A DNA stretch of 36,887 nt from Planctomycetota bacterium (GTDB lineage: Bacteria > Planctomycetota > UBA1135 > GCA-002686595), in the NCBI GenBank assembly GCA_020847695.1, contig JADLBP010000102.1, positions 1 through 36,887 on the forward strand. The letters are read 5' to 3'. Both the position numbers and the translations under genes were made by a program. Position 1 is the first letter of the stretch. Each line of letters starts with the position of its first letter. Below the pieces are notes generated by a model that searched no databases, was not told where the DNA came from, and was given only the letters and a program-made list of their open reading frames with translations. Shown in pieces: positions 22,121 through 28,530 of this stretch.

Positions 22121-22160
22121 GCGCGCACTCTAACGGCGCGCGTGGCGCGCGAGCAACGTG

Positions 22161-22745
22161 TCAGGCGCCGGCGGGCGGGTTCTCGGGCTTGTCGTCCTTG
22201 CCGAACAACCCGGTCGCGAACAGGATCACCGCGCCGACGGAGATGCAGGAGTCGGCGACGTTGAACGTGTGGAAGTGCCAGTCGAAACCGGTGAAGTACA
22301 CGTCGATGAAGTCGCGCACCATCCCGAACGGACGGCCGTCGACTCGCGGCATGAAGAGGTTGTCGTAGAGGTTGCCCATCGCGCCCGCGGCGATCAGCAC
22401 GAACGACGCGGAGAGCCACGGCTTCGTGCGCGGCGTCTTCGCCACCAGCCAGAGCAGGAACACCGACGCGACGATGCGACCGCCGACCAACAACCACGTC
22501 GGCAGGAACTCCATGCCCCACGCCATGCCCGGGTTCCACGACTGCATGAACGAGAACCAGGGGCTGATGATCTCCCACCGGCGGTGGAAGTGCGGGTCGA
22601 ACGTCAGCGCTTCGGGGTGCGCGTCGATGTACGCGAACACCGCCGACTTCGACCACAGATCGAGCGCGAGCAACGCGACGACCCACGGCATGCGGGTCAG
22701 CACGCGTCGGAGGACGCCGTCAGCGGGGCTCGAGCTCGCCTCCAC
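22161..22745 (-). CDS. lspA: Lipoprotein signal peptidase
   Basis: A 194-residue inner-membrane aspartyl protease that cleaves prolipoproteins before the lipidated cysteine. Four membrane segments are visible. The first has LDLWSKS, equivalent to the DxxSK motif. The catalytic aspartates are Asp128 in GNLYDNL and Asp165 in FNVADSCI. The first motif is normally GNxxDR; here Arg is replaced by Asn. A soluble insertion of about 20 residues (49-70) before the conserved NPGMAWG is longer than in E. coli. The start is GTG 22745, 12 bases after the DksA-type gene, so translation may be coupled. It would process the many lipoproteins encoded in this window. Confidence 0.93.
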   Translation of the reverse strand: MEASSSPADGVLRRVLTRMPWVVALLALDLWSKSAVFAYIDAHPEALTFDPHFHRRWEIISPWFSFMQSWNPGMAWGMEFLPTWLLVGGRIVASVFLLWLVAKTPRTKPWLSASFVLIAAGAMGNLYDNLFMPRVDGRPFGMVRDFIDVYFTGFDWHFHTFNVADSCISVGAVILFATGLFGKDDKPENPPAGA

Positions 22746-22757
22746 GCGACGTCGCGG

Positions 22758-23126
22758 TCAGAAGCCTTCGCGCTCCAGCTTGCGCTGGCACTCGATGCAG
22801 TAGCGGGCGTGCGGGACGGCCTTCAGTCGCTCCTTGAGGATCGCCTTCTGGCAATTCTCGCAGGTCCCGAACGAGCCGTTCTCGATGCGATCGAGCGCTT
22901 CGATGATCTCGCCGAGCGTCTGCTCGTCGCGCTGGAGCAGCTCCAGGTTGAACTCCTGGTAGTACCCGTCGGACGTGTCGCCGGGATTGGTCTCGCCGGC
23001 GGGCGAGTGTCCGGTGCCCAGCGCTTCTTCTTGCAACTGGGACATGTCTCCCGAGATGGCTGCGCGCGCGCGGGTCAAAGCGTTCTTGAACGCTTCCAAG
23101 TCTTTGGCGGAGAGTTTCTTGGGCAT
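22758..23126 (-). CDS. DksA/TraR-family zinc-finger regulator
   Basis: A 122-residue protein with an N-terminal coiled-coil-forming region (about 5-82) and a C4 zinc finger made by Cys89, Cys92, Cys110 and Cys113 (CENC, then YCIEC). DksA-type proteins enter the RNA polymerase secondary channel and, with ppGpp in many species, adjust stable-RNA and amino-acid promoters. The coiled-coil tip here (GETNPGDTSDGYY) does not carry the DxxDxA motif of true E. coli DksA, so it is better called a TraR/YocK-like family member. ATG 23126 is the natural start. It heads the minus-strand operon, about 105 bases downstream of a strong promoter. Confidence 0.9.
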   Translation of the reverse strand: MPKKLSAKDLEAFKNALTRARAAISGDMSQLQEEALGTGHSPAGETNPGDTSDGYYQEFNLELLQRDEQTLGEIIEALDRIENGSFGTCENCQKAILKERLKAVPHARYCIECQRKLEREGF

Positions 23127-23237
23127 GTCGAGCAGCGCGAAATCGGGAGCTCCGTGTGGTCCGCCCGATCGTTGCGAGCGGATGCGGGGCGGAGGCGGGG
23201 CCCTGCACGTCCCCGGCCGCTTTTTGCGAGGCGCAGC

Positions 23238-23265
23238 ATTATGGGGAAGAGCCCCCTCCAGTCAA
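23238..23265 (-). promoter_or_regulatory. Near-consensus sigma-70 promoter of the dksA-like/lspA/pyrD block
   Basis: On the minus strand, TTGACT (23260-23265) and CATAAT (23238-23243) each match five of six consensus bases and are 16 bases apart. This is the best promoter I can find in the window. Transcription would start near 23230, leaving a leader of about 105 bases that includes a GGGG/CCCC stem. It likely drives the DksA-like gene, lspA, pyrD and the response regulator, and perhaps further. Confidence 0.65.
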
Positions 23266-23327
23266 GGCGACGCGGGCGTTCGCGGAAGAGCTTGCCTCGG
23301 ACCGACGCCTGGGCGACGCTCGCCGCC

Positions 23328-24350
23328 ATGCCCACGGCCCCGGACGGTCCGGCCCGACCCGCCCACCCCGCGAGCGATGGCGCGTCGCGCCGCAACCGAC
23401 TCGCGTCGAGCCGACTCGAGGCCGCGTCGCGCCGGGCGGAGGTCGCCGCGCTCCCGGCGGAGTTCGCGACCGCCGTCGACGACTTCCTGACCGCCCTGCG
23501 GGTCGAAGCCGGGCTCGCGCGCACGACCCTCGCGGCGTACCGCGGCGACCTCGAGCGCTTGCTCGCGTGGTGCGACGAGCACGGTCGCCGCCGGCTCGCT
23601 GCGATCCGCGACGACGACGTGATCGACTTCCTCGGCGCGCGCCGCGCCGCCGGGATTGGCGAGGCGACGGTCGCACACCATCTGACGGTCGCGCGGATGT
23701 TCTTCCGCTTCCTGGTCGCCGAAGGCGAGCTCGAGCGCGACCCGACCGCGCGCATCGTCTCGCCGAGACTCCGACGGTTCCTGCCGTCTCTGCTCTCGCC
23801 CGCCGACGTCGAGCTGCTGCTCGCGGCGCCGAAAGGCGACGGCTGGCGCGCCGAGCGCGACCGCGCGCTGCTCGAAGTGCTCTACGCCGCCGGCGCGCGG
23901 ATCAGCGAGGCGATCGCGCTGCGCACCGACTCGATCGAGCCGTCGTTGCGCGTGCTGCGGCTGACCGGCAAGGGCCAGAAGACGCGCGTCGTCCCGTGCG
24001 GCGAGAACGCGCGCGTCGCGCTCGCCCGCTGGATCGGCGGCGGTCGGATGCGCCTTCCCAACGCGGCGCAGCGCGCCGAGGTGTTCCTCTCGAAGACCGG
24101 GCGGCCGCTCGACCGCCTGACCGGATGGCGCATCGTCAAGGCCGCGGCGCGAGCGGTCGGTCTGCCCTCCGACGTCTCGCCGCACACGCTGAGACACTCG
24201 TTCGCGTCGCACCTGATCGAGGGCGGCGCGGACCTGCGCAGCGTCCAGGAGATGCTCGGCCACGCGTCGATCCGCACCACCGAGGTCTACACGCACCTCG
24301 ATACCGAGCACGTGCTCGCGATCCACCGCTTGCACCATCCGCGGGGCTGA
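23328..24350 (+). CDS. XerC/XerD-type tyrosine recombinase
   Basis: A 340-residue site-specific recombinase. The N-terminal SAM-like DNA-binding domain (about 44-135) is followed by the catalytic domain with the full set of active-site residues: Arg191 (GARISEA), Lys215 (TGKGQKTR), His286 and Arg289 (HTLRHSFASHL), His312 (LGHAS) and nucleophile Tyr321 (EVYTHLD). Family members resolve chromosome dimers at dif, and this Xer-like domain order fits that job better than a phage integrase. The first 40 residues are basic, disordered-looking and longer than usual. An alternative in-frame ATG at 23241 overlaps the minus-strand promoter, so 23328 is preferred but uncertain. No dif-like site was identified. 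Confidence 0.9.
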   Translation: MPTAPDGPARPAHPASDGASRRNRLASSRLEAASRRAEVAALPAEFATAVDDFLTALRVEAGLARTTLAAYRGDLERLLAWCDEHGRRRLAAIRDDDVIDFLGARRAAGIGEATVAHHLTVARMFFRFLVAEGELERDPTARIVSPRLRRFLPSLLSPADVELLLAAPKGDGWRAERDRALLEVLYAAGARISEAIALRTDSIEPSLRVLRLTGKGQKTRVVPCGENARVALARWIGGGRMRLPNAAQRAEVFLSKTGRPLDRLTGWRIVKAAARAVGLPSDVSPHTLRHSFASHLIEGGADLRSVQEMLGHASIRTTEVYTHLDTEHVLAIHRLHHPRG

Positions 24351-24429: not shown

Positions 24430-25215
24430 ATGCGCGCTCTGCTCGTCCTCGTGTTGTTGATCGGCGGCGCCGCGTTCTTCCTCAGCTCGACCGAGGAAGG
24501 CAGCGATCGCAAGGGCCCGACCGTCTCCGCGTGGGACGGCGGACGGCGCTCGAGCGAGGAGCGCGTCGAGAGCCCGTCGCTCGCGACCGAGATCGAGGCC
24601 GACGCCGAGGGCCACGTGACCATCTTCCTCGGTGACAACGGCGGCGAGGACGCGGGAGCGGCGGCGCAGCTCCACGTCGCGGGCCGCGTGATCGATCCGC
24701 GCGGCGACGCGGTCGAGGGCCTCGCGCTCGCGTACCGCTCGAGCGCCGAGCTCGGCTCCGAGCCGGACACCGCGCAGGTGCGCTGCGACTCGCTGGGCTC
24801 GTTCACGCTGACCGCGGACAGCACGTACGCGGAGTTCTCGTGCGAGGACACGCGCTGGACGCTGCTGTTCGCCGGCATCGAGGAGAGCGGCGCGCACGGC
24901 TTCCGCTTGACCTTGATCGCCGCGCCGACGACGCCGTGCGCAGGCTTGGTGCTCGACCGCGCGGGCCACCGCATCGAAGGCGCGCGCGTGCAAGTCACCG
25001 GCCGTGTCGAGATCCCGCGCATGCGCAACTTGACCGCTCACGACTTCGCTCGCCGCGTCGACAGCGACGAGCGCGGACACTTCGACCTCGGTCGCGTGCC
25101 GTTGCTCGCTCCGACGTCGTTGCGCGCGCACACGCCCGAGCTCGGCTCCGCGGAGCTCGAGCTCGTGTCCTCCGAGGACCGCGATCTCTCGATCGTGCTC
25201 CAGGGCGTGCAATGA
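24430..25215 (+). CDS. Membrane-anchored carboxypeptidase-regulatory-like protein
   Basis: A 261-residue protein with an N-terminal hydrophobic segment (residues 3-18, ALLVLVLLIGGAAFFL) and a polar linker. Two beta-sandwich-like units follow: one opens LHVAGRVIDPRGDAVEGLAL (about 78-98), the other CAGLVLDRAGHRIEGARV (about 164-182). Both resemble carboxypeptidase regulatory-like domains, and the protein should lie outside the cytoplasm. TACCCT at 24408-24413 may be a -10 element, but no good -35 is seen. Its stop overlaps the next gene by ATGA, so both are made together, although the next product looks cytoplasmic. Function unknown. Confidence 0.75.
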   Translation: MRALLVLVLLIGGAAFFLSSTEEGSDRKGPTVSAWDGGRRSSEERVESPSLATEIEADAEGHVTIFLGDNGGEDAGAAAQLHVAGRVIDPRGDAVEGLALAYRSSAELGSEPDTAQVRCDSLGSFTLTADSTYAEFSCEDTRWTLLFAGIEESGAHGFRLTLIAAPTTPCAGLVLDRAGHRIEGARVQVTGRVEIPRMRNLTAHDFARRVDSDERGHFDLGRVPLLAPTSLRAHTPELGSAELELVSSEDRDLSIVLQGVQ

Positions 25216-25953: not shown

Positions 25954-28530
25954 TCAGAACGCGACCGTGGTCACGTGCTCGGTCGTGAGCGCGAGCGGCG
26001 CGCGCGCGACCTCGACGTCGCCGGAGAACAACACCAGCGTGCGCGCCTCCGAGCTGACCGAGAACACCGCGGTCCGCCCGTCGATCACCTCGATCTCGGT
26101 GTAAGCGTTGACGCTGCCGCCGCGGATCACGAGCAGGTCGAGCGGACGCCCCTCGCCGTCGAGCGCCTGCACACGATTTCCGCGGTCGAGCGGAGGCGCG
26201 AGCTCGACCTGCAGGTTGCAGCGCGAGTGCACGACGATCGACCAGCGCTCGGGCTCGTCGCCGGGGCCGAGCTCGGCGGATTGCGGCAGCACGAGATCGC
26301 CTTGGAAGTCGAGCGCGACGCCGCGCTTGGGCACGTCCTCGAGCTCGAACCAACCGTCGTCGTCGGTCTCGACGCGTTGGCCTTGCTGGTAGAGCACGAG
26401 CTGCACGCGCCCGCCGTACACACGCCCGGTGGTGTCGACCACGTTCATCCGCTCGCGCACGCGCACGCCGGCGAGCGGCGCGCCGAAATCGTCGAGCACG
26501 CGGCCACGGAACTTCGCCCACCGCTCGCCGAGCGGCAGCGTGACGCGGACGTCGTCCCGACCGGCGGCGAGGGGCTCGCTGGTCGCGAGCGCGAGCGGGT
26601 CGTCCGACAGCGCGCAGAGTCGGTAGTCGCGGTCGAGCAATCCGTCGAGTCGGAAACGGCCCTCGTCGTCGGTCGCGACCCAGTGCCAGAACGCGCTCGG
26701 CGGTCCCGCGCGCATCCAGAAGTCGTTGAACGAATCCCCGTCCTCGTCGGGTGCTTGCGGCTCGAACGCGTGCGCCGGGATCTCGGCGCCGGCGAGCAGC
26801 CCTTCGAGCGGCGCGGGGAACGCGCCGACGACGCCGAACGGCGTCGGATCGGCGAGCCACACCTTCACGCCCTCGAGCGGCTCGCCCTGCGCGTCGACGA
26901 CCACGCCGGCGAGCGACAGGTTCGGTCGCGCGAGCCGCAGCGTCACCGACGCCGGCCAGCGCTCGCCCGGACGCTCGACGCGGTCCGGCAGGAGGCCGGC
27001 TTTCGCCGCGGTCACCGCGTCCGCGGTCACGGCGCGCGAGAGATCGAGCTCGAATCCGCCGTCCTCGCCGCTCGCCGTCGACGTCAATCCGCACGCGACG
27101 CGCGCGCCGGCGACCGCTCGACCTTCGCCGTCGACGACGCGACCGCGCAGCGCGCCGGCGAGCGCGACCTGCGGTCGTTCGAGCGTCAGCGTGAACGCGG
27201 CGCCGCCCGCGAGCGGCACGTCGACGCTCGCCGGCGCGTAGCCGTCGAGCACCGCGCGCAACGTCGCTCCCGCGACCGCGGGCACGCGCTCGAACGCGAA
27301 CCGTCCGTCGCGCGCGCTCGTTTCGCTCCAACCCGGGAGCTCGCTGCCTTCGAGCACCGTCTCGAAACGGGTCTCGAAGTCCGCGGGCAGTCGGTACGAC
27401 ACCCGCGCGTGCTCCAAGGGCTCGCCGTCGCTCGAGACGACGCGACCGGCGACCGCGACCGGCGGCGCGACGATCACCAGAGGCTCGTGCTGCGAGTGGT
27501 TCTGCCAGACTCCCGCGCGCACCGCGGCCCAGCGTTCGTCGTCGGCGCGCACCCGGCCGTTCTTCGCGTCCGAGCGGACGACGAACGTGCCGTCGTCGCC
27601 GCTGGTCGCGCGCGGTTCGAGCGCGCCGTCGAGCGCGAGCTCGACGCCCGCGACCGCGCGCCCCTGATCGTCGAGCACCCGGCCGACGAGCTCGTACACC
27701 GCGCTCGCCGCGACCGTCGCCGCGGGCTTCGACGCGCTCGCCGAAGCGCCGCCGCCGACCGCGCTGCGCTCGTCGCGCGCGAGCTCGGCCGCGAGCGTCT
27801 CGCCGGCGTCGCCGCCGCGGCCCCCGGGAGCCGGCGCGAGCGCCGACGACGGCGCGGCCGTCGGAGCGAGTCCGTCATCCGACCGAGCGGGCTCGCGGGT
27901 CGCGAACCACCAACCGCCGGCCGCGACCAACACCGCCATCGCCACGAGCAGTTTCGTCTTCATCAGAGCGAGTCCGAGCCAAGGCCAAGCGGCGCCGTCG
28001 CCGCCGGAGAAACGGAGGAGCAGCGCGAGCGACCACGCGCCGCCGAGTTCGCGCTGCAGGCGCGCGCGCAGCAGCGCGTGCGCTCGAGTGAGTCGGCTCT
28101 CGACGGTCGCAGGCGGCACGCCGAGCTCCTCGGCGATGCGCCGCGTCGCGTGGCCGGCGAAATGCCGGCGCAACACCGTCGAGCGATACGGTTCCTCGAG
28201 CGCGAGCACCGCGGCGACCAGACGTTGTTGGAGCTCGGCGCGCGCGACGAGCTCGTCGACCGGCTCGGTCGCTTCGCTCGCCGACGCCGCGCGCTCGCGC
28301 GCTTCGCGTCGGTCGTGCGCGCGACGCGCCTGGCGCGCCAGGTTGCGCAGCACGCCACCGAACCAACCGCGCGAGCATTCGACGCGCTCCGGAGCCTGCA
28401 ACGCGGCGACCCACGCGTCCTGCGCGAGGTCGTCCGCCGCCGCTCCGTCGCGCACCAACGAGCGCGCGAGCCGCCGCGTCCAGGCGAGCTCGTCGAACCA
28501 GGCGTCGGGGGTCGAGGTCGGGGGCGTCAT
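25954..28530 (-). CDS. ECF sigma factor fused to a membrane helix and extracytoplasmic carboxypeptidase-regulatory-like repeats
   Basis: A continuous 858-residue frame. Residues 11-75 form sigma region 2 (LARSLVRDGAAADDLAQDAW; RGWFGGVLRNLARQ). Residues 95-160 form region 4 with a helix-turn-helix (TRRIAEELGVPPATVESRL). A hydrophobic helix at about 184-209 (LALMKTKLLVAMAVLVAAGG) then leads through an Ala/Pro-rich linker to about five repeats of the type GRVLDDQGRAVAGVEL (near 283, 362, 462, 541 and 675). These resemble carboxypeptidase-regulatory domains and should be extracytoplasmic, with the sigma part in the cytoplasm. No separate anti-sigma gene is adjacent. The design suggests a one-piece surface sensor and transcription factor. 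Met190 could be an internal start, but no ribosome-binding site precedes it. Confidence 0.88.
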   Translation of the reverse strand: MTPPTSTPDAWFDELAWTRRLARSLVRDGAAADDLAQDAWVAALQAPERVECSRGWFGGVLRNLARQARRAHDRREARERAASASEATEPVDELVARAELQQRLVAAVLALEEPYRSTVLRRHFAGHATRRIAEELGVPPATVESRLTRAHALLRARLQRELGGAWSLALLLRFSGGDGAAWPWLGLALMKTKLLVAMAVLVAAGGWWFATREPARSDDGLAPTAAPSSALAPAPGGRGGDAGETLAAELARDERSAVGGGASASASKPAATVAASAVYELVGRVLDDQGRAVAGVELALDGALEPRATSGDDGTFVVRSDAKNGRVRADDERWAAVRAGVWQNHSQHEPLVIVAPPVAVAGRVVSSDGEPLEHARVSYRLPADFETRFETVLEGSELPGWSETSARDGRFAFERVPAVAGATLRAVLDGYAPASVDVPLAGGAAFTLTLERPQVALAGALRGRVVDGEGRAVAGARVACGLTSTASGEDGGFELDLSRAVTADAVTAAKAGLLPDRVERPGERWPASVTLRLARPNLSLAGVVVDAQGEPLEGVKVWLADPTPFGVVGAFPAPLEGLLAGAEIPAHAFEPQAPDEDGDSFNDFWMRAGPPSAFWHWVATDDEGRFRLDGLLDRDYRLCALSDDPLALATSEPLAAGRDDVRVTLPLGERWAKFRGRVLDDFGAPLAGVRVRERMNVVDTTGRVYGGRVQLVLYQQGQRVETDDDGWFELEDVPKRGVALDFQGDLVLPQSAELGPGDEPERWSIVVHSRCNLQVELAPPLDRGNRVQALDGEGRPLDLLVIRGGSVNAYTEIEVIDGRTAVFSVSSEARTLVLFSGDVEVARAPLALTTEHVTTVAF

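Follow-up and report, generated by a model that had tools for sequence, protein, structure and literature searches.

A planctomycete family of ECF sigma factors carried on one polypeptide with a transmembrane helix and a CarboxypepD_reg array, with an internal translation start conserved in many members

The gene described here encodes, in a single reading frame, an ECF sigma factor (regions 2 and 4), a tryptophan-containing juxtamembrane helix, one transmembrane (TM) helix, a linker predicted to be disordered and a CarboxypepD_reg array of 580 residues, in that order. It lies in a window of 36,887 nucleotides from a Planctomycetota bacterium, the window being the whole stretch of DNA that was analysed. 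The gene belongs to a large planctomycete family, and from nucleotide-level comparisons we conclude that a translation start immediately before the membrane helix is kept by selection in a substantial part of that family. We favour, with moderate confidence, the explanation that these proteins are one-component, membrane-tethered sigma-receptors and that two products are made from one gene in much of the family.

Background

ECF sigma factors with a transmembrane regulatory extension are a known kind, and in the known one-piece examples sigma is believed to be released when the anti-sigma part fused to it is proteolysed (PMC8999054; SCO4117, PMC5826349). ECF52, represented by SCO4117 of Streptomyces, combines sigma, a TM helix, an outer proline-rich stalk and a carbohydrate-binding domain in one polypeptide, for which cleavage has been proposed (PMC8999054, PMC5826349). 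IutY of Pseudomonas putida (ECF243) is a sigma factor fused to a membrane-bound regulator and is released by the proteases Prc and RseP (PMC8999054).

Gene structure

The gene is read on the minus strand, with its ATG at 28530 and its stop at 25954, and the plus strand of this interval does not encode it. An earlier note on this DNA had described one uninterrupted frame of 858 codons in which sensor and transcription factor form a single molecule. Both points were borne out. Third-position GC was 0.82-0.97 in each 60-codon window of the frame, codons 151-210 included, so the entire frame reads as one coding unit; nothing in these windows points to a frameshift or a stop codon from codon 165 to codon 190, and sigma factor, membrane anchor and outer array lie on one chain (Table 1).

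Syntenic orthologs in two genomes of the same genus (L121 and L122; 65% and 68% identity) adjoin uvrC and the B3/4-domain gene and retain the fused frame with every part of the architecture, so the fusion is not a chance event. Two genes misread as one were considered and rejected: the frame is uninterrupted and has been conserved, and each of the short-frame members examined proved to be a contig end, a sigma-only sister or an interrupted frame. A lone lineage-specific fusion or an assembly error is likewise contradicted by the syntenic orthologs, by 17 paralogs and by members in closed isolate genomes.

Table 1. Features of the gene and of its convergent neighbour, in window coordinates
Feature	Position	Strand	Details
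Whole gene: ECF sigma, TM helix, CarboxypepD_reg array	25954..28530	-	858 codons + stop
Sigma region 2	28306..28482	-	residues 17-75; Pfam Sigma70_r2, E 6e-9
Sigma region 4	28081..28227	-	residues 102-150; Pfam Sigma70_r4_2, E 1.4e-8
Juxtamembrane helix with Trp166	28006..28038	-	residues 165-175 (11 residues); AlphaFold2; W in 79% of 81 members
Single transmembrane helix	27898..27981	-	residues 184-211; hydropathy, AlphaFold2, family positive-inside charges
GGA of Gly186, where the family has its internal Shine-Dalgarno	27973..27975	-	weak in the window gene, GGA only; strict test false
ATG of Met190, the family's conserved internal start position	27961..27963	-	
Disordered, fast-evolving linker	27697..27897	-	residues 212-278; AlphaFold2 pLDDT <50; 17-38% identity, dN/dS 0.8-1.1
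Predicted periplasmic CarboxypepD_reg/beta-sandwich array	25957..27696	-	residues 279-858; 66-72% ortholog identity, no gap column
Convergent sigma-less neighbour	24430..25215	+	hydrophobic N-terminal segment, then two array-like repeats; conserved in G001

Sigma and membrane-proximal regions

Pfam matched both of the sigma regions previously claimed for the protein, and the NCBIfam sigma70-ECF superfamily model scored 62.1 bits against a cut-off of 42.9. Structure searches with the first part of the protein returned ECF sigma factors; profile matches of the sigma part were to SigE, SigL, SigW and SigH structures, and the region-4 fold matched structures 3hug and 2h27. With regions 2 and 4 present and the remainder of group 1 missing, the protein falls among the ECF factors.

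The highest hydropathy in the window protein (1.97, residues 185-203; runner-up segment 1.33) coincides with an AlphaFold2 helix at residues 184-211, which is followed by predicted disorder at about 210-276, in agreement with the single hydrophobic helix and linker of the earlier note. Among 81 members, conservation reaches 93% for Gly186, 79% for Trp166 and 80% for Trp208. The net charge across 88 members is +1.2 before the membrane core and -1.3 after it, with the N-terminal side the more positive in 73 of the 88 and ties in 10. The topology check proposed in the earlier note accordingly gave a predicted N-in orientation, on the basis of flanking charge.

A soluble sigma factor, whose hydrophobic segment stays out of the membrane and whose array serves cytoplasmic interactions, would have a precedent in planctomycete ECFs with WD40 arrays; some of these were recovered in detergent fractions, which does not prove that they are inserted (PMC8567305). 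We regard this as extremely unlikely here, given that the TM position, the flanking charges and the tryptophan are conserved in the family and that the linker behaves as a stalk. CarboxypepD_reg arrays, moreover, are usually found in exported proteins.

The stretch between the end of sigma region 4 and the TM core has a median length of 38 residues in 88 members. None of the 88 carries a CxxC/HxxxCxxC zinc motif there, and the Pfam listings for 70 members include no anti-sigma or zinc-finger domain. As no anti-sigma domain fits between region 4 and the membrane, we infer that tethering limits sigma activity.

Linker and outer array

CarboxypepD_reg was matched by Pfam in three to four separate stretches of the window protein (E 9e-31), and the array is of the CarboxypepD_reg type in 61 of 70 members. 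AlphaFold2 predicted beta-sandwiches throughout residues 279-858, which makes the previous count of about five repeats a fair one. Structure searches with the array matched pilins and macroglobulins; we read these matches as generic transthyretin/prealbumin-like sandwiches. No carbohydrate-binding module is among the Pfam families listed for the 70 members.

Ortholog comparisons gave dN/dS values near 0.34 for the sigma part, 0.40-0.50 for the array and 0.8-1.1 for the linker. The array contains no gap column over its 580 residues and is conserved to the same degree as the sigma part, and these alignments support purifying selection along its full length. A freely evolving stalk between two modules under constraint is the pattern expected of a tethered receptor, not of a decaying or accidental fusion.

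Two further features of the outer region were observed. The motif DEDGDSFND (residues 595-603; window 26722-26748, minus strand) resembles a thrombospondin type-3 calcium loop, and it sits in a low-confidence yet strongly conserved insertion of the array at residues of about 563-614. Three members (L262, L267 and L270) have shorter tails with a coiled-coil-like appearance instead of beta-sandwiches, which suggests exchange of outer domains.

Distribution and phylogeny

A search for the same fusion, as the earlier note had proposed, recovered a whole family and not a single case. The genome that contains the window has 72 matches to sigma region 2, and 18 of these have the same fused architecture; all 18 possess regions 2 and 4 and 17 possess CarboxypepD_reg. 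Sigma-profile matches were present in all 31 related genomes searched, with up to 71 in one 9 Mb genome, and most of the matches listed from these genomes lie in frames of more than 600 codons. Strong matches occurred in 60 of 292 genomes of a phylum sample. At least 70 frames with a TM helix and a long tail were found in a scan of named genomes, almost all of them in Planctomycetota and a few in Myxococcota bins; a contig scan with the window protein alone as query gave no match. Closed isolate genomes also carry the family: 15 members were read in Pla86 (Engelhardtia mirabilis), out of about 25-30 long-frame members in that genome, and 7 in Pla163 (Rohdeia mirabilis), with TM helix and long tail.

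All 43 fused rows of a sigma tree, together with one soluble row, fell into one clade with support of 98/87. An independent origin of the L005/L011 subclade was considered and rejected: the tree places it as a sister inside the fused clade, so that a single origin suffices. The soluble row is a conserved sigma-only sister beside L012. In each of the four genomes of the genus this sister (L012 (G000:C222), L254, L258 and L259) is found next to a fused member, and its lack of TM helix and array looks like secondary loss.

Runs of four or five long-frame members in a row occur at 4.030-4.044 Mb in Pla163 and at 4.807-4.816 Mb in Pla86; those read from the Pla163 run (L136, L138, L140, L142 and L146) have a TM helix and long tails. 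Four members come from Myxococcota bins (L081, L093, L109 and L113), and the three of these in the tree (L081, L109 and L113) nest in the planctomycete clade, which may reflect lateral transfer or mis-binning.

Internal translation start

The column of Met190 is rich in start codons. In 69 ungapped sequences it holds ATG in 31, GTG in 15 and the GTG synonym GTC in only 2, whereas GTC and GTG are used about equally elsewhere; the codon of Gly186, just upstream, is often GGA across the family. A strict test required a Shine-Dalgarno 3-10 nt before an in-frame ATG or GTG in the juxtamembrane window, and was applied to 159 members, a larger set in which identity did not exceed 85%. The site was present in 60 of the 159, against 13.7 ± 2.8 after synonymous-codon shuffling, and in 6.1% of 4649 control windows from the same genes; 62% of members lack it by this test. 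Hold-out sequences, kept apart from the discovery set, gave 29 of 73 against 6.6 ± 2.1 after shuffling. The excess over shuffled expectation persisted when sequences were thinned to 60% identity (56/143 against 10.9), to 50% (26/80 against 6.2) and to 45% (11/41 against 2.8). The 16S anti-Shine-Dalgarno is intact in Pla86 and in G001, a genome of the same genus as the window.

Shine-Dalgarno-like pauses are known early in E. coli membrane-protein genes (PMC4359368), and GGAG before the membrane helix might be a mere elongation pause that aids membrane targeting, with no start involved. Three observations make this very unlikely. Co-selection of start codons is seen at a single spacing, since 8 nt after GGAG the in-frame codon is ATG or GTG in 49 of 81 cases (GTG over GTC 19:2) as against 6-12% at the other well-sampled spacings; the signal is confined to the reading frame (66/224 starts with a Shine-Dalgarno in frame, 4/81 out of frame); and none of 22 single-TM kinases of the same genomes has an internal Shine-Dalgarno and start. 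A pause as the only cause of the internal GGAG is thus disfavoured by start-codon co-selection, by frame and by the kinase control.

The internal start might also be a relic of a two-gene operon, consisting of a sigma factor and a separate membrane sensor, whose product is now unimportant. The site does have the look of a full gene start (Shine-Dalgarno, start codon, lysine, hydrophobic segment), sigma-less relatives such as P0003 exist, and the strict site is absent from most members. We nevertheless judge a relic distinctly unlikely, because the synonymous-site signal persists in members thinned to at most 45-60% identity and because the short-frame members that were examined, all of them contig edges, sigma-only sisters or interrupted frames, included no unfused two-gene state.

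A start retained by selection thus leads us to predict two products for the members that have it, a sigma-receptor and a receptor alone. A Shine-Dalgarno and start beyond what the protein sequence demands were found for the family, and weakly for the window gene, which has ATG190 preceded by GGA only and failed the strict test. The G001 ortholog reads GGAG-N8-GTG, and the G003 ortholog has GGGGA before ATG. From these sequences a second product of the window gene is possible and not established. The earlier note had raised the prospect of separate proteins made from codon 1 and from Met190 in place of a fusion; for the family this is half correct, as many members conserve a ribosome-binding site and start codon in the Met190 column, alongside the full-length frame.

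Proposed mechanism and comparison with known systems

In the explanation that we favour, a cytoplasmic ECF sigma factor would be kept near the inner membrane by its own TM helix, while the C-terminal beta-sandwich array would stand in the periplasm on a flexible stalk as a sensor or docking surface. Sigma activity would be limited by tethering, with contributions from the Trp helix and from how the outer array is shaped or clustered, and a signal on the array would make sigma available. By analogy with IutY, regulated intramembrane proteolysis would be the most likely route, and activity at the membrane a less likely one. Site-2-protease-family genes are present in this genome, yet also in all 14 control genomes.

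A sigma factor acting in place would recruit RNA polymerase at the membrane without cleavage, and the array would control how the protein clusters or where the juxtamembrane helix sits. Membrane-bound one-component regulators such as CadC and ToxR provide a model for such action, and it would accord with the lack of an anti-sigma segment to remove and with the conserved, structured helix beside region 4. We consider it rather unlikely, since a membrane-bound RNA polymerase holoenzyme would be unusual and since Prc and RseP release IutY, which among characterised one-piece sigma factors is the closest (PMC8999054).

Under the favoured tethered-receptor explanation, much of the family would yield two co-terminal products by way of the internal ribosome-binding site and its start codon, a sigma-receptor and a sigma-less receptor. 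The latter could share or compete for ligand and partners, and by analogy with two-polypeptide endolysins it could form mixed assemblies. We put forward tentatively, as somewhat short of probable, the further idea that each gene supplies a sigma-receptor pair in which the ratio of the two products made through the internal ribosome-binding site sets signalling and so takes the place of an anti-sigma factor, dozens of these circuits running in parallel in one cell.

Like ECF52, ECF53 and ECF48, the family has a TM helix C-terminal to region 4 on one chain. Those groups are described from Actinobacteria and have a zinc-finger anti-sigma segment before the membrane, whereas the present family is planctomycetal and multicopy, lacks such a segment, and includes many members with an internal start; in place of the carbohydrate-binding outer domain of ECF52 it carries a CarboxypepD_reg array. 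IutY similarly joins sigma and a membrane-bound part in a single chain, but its fused part is the anti-sigma factor of a cell-surface siderophore system, and no such domain or partner was found in the family. The planctomycete WD40-fused ECFs, including ECF57, are also lineage-expanded and also bear C-terminal repeat arrays (PMC8567305, PMC8999054); theirs are WD40 repeats with protein-interaction models, in contrast to a TM helix and an outer transthyretin-like array. Two-polypeptide phage endolysins likewise derive two products with a common stop from one frame, and the short product can assemble with the long one (PMC9430671), although the short form predicted here would be without the whole transcription-factor part.

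The family thus departs from the known kind in lineage, copy number, absence of the anti-sigma segment, outer domain and internal start. The literature we found contains no report of in-frame internal starts for sigma factors and no description of the architecture, which may have been listed earlier in ECF classification or planctomycete ECF papers (2012, 2020, 2021). One-piece transmembrane sigma factors are known from few groups, and a whole lineage appears to use them here as a major signalling style. The known cases are explained by an anti-sigma segment, which is absent here, and how sigma is silenced becomes a testable question. The conserved start makes a concrete prediction, namely that the same gene would also give a sigma-less co-receptor, and it carries a warning as well, for annotation reads such genes as one product only.

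Genomic neighbourhood

On the same strand, uvrC lies upstream of the gene and uvrB further on; downstream, in convergent orientation, come a gene with a B3/4 domain and a small one with CarboxypepD_reg. The earlier statement that no anti-sigma gene is adjacent agrees with these neighbours. The repeats of the protein encoded at 24430-25215 align with the first two array repeats (27% identity, E 5e-10), and the protein is 67% identical in a sister species; it is possibly a sigma-less partner or decoy.

Across 88 family loci no conserved neighbour family was seen besides a single cluster, made up of 15 long ORFs that are probably paralogs, and a partner gene common to all loci was sought without success. 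The classic ECF autoregulation motif AAC...CGT is not enriched upstream of the fused genes. TGAACC is enriched in a minority: within 150 bp upstream at the 88 loci it occurs 15 times on the coding strand and 2 times on the other strand; it may be an ECF -35 element and a hint of autoregulation in a subset of the family. A frame for a tyrosine recombinase of the phage integrase family lies close to the locus, at 22158-24350 on the plus strand of the window.
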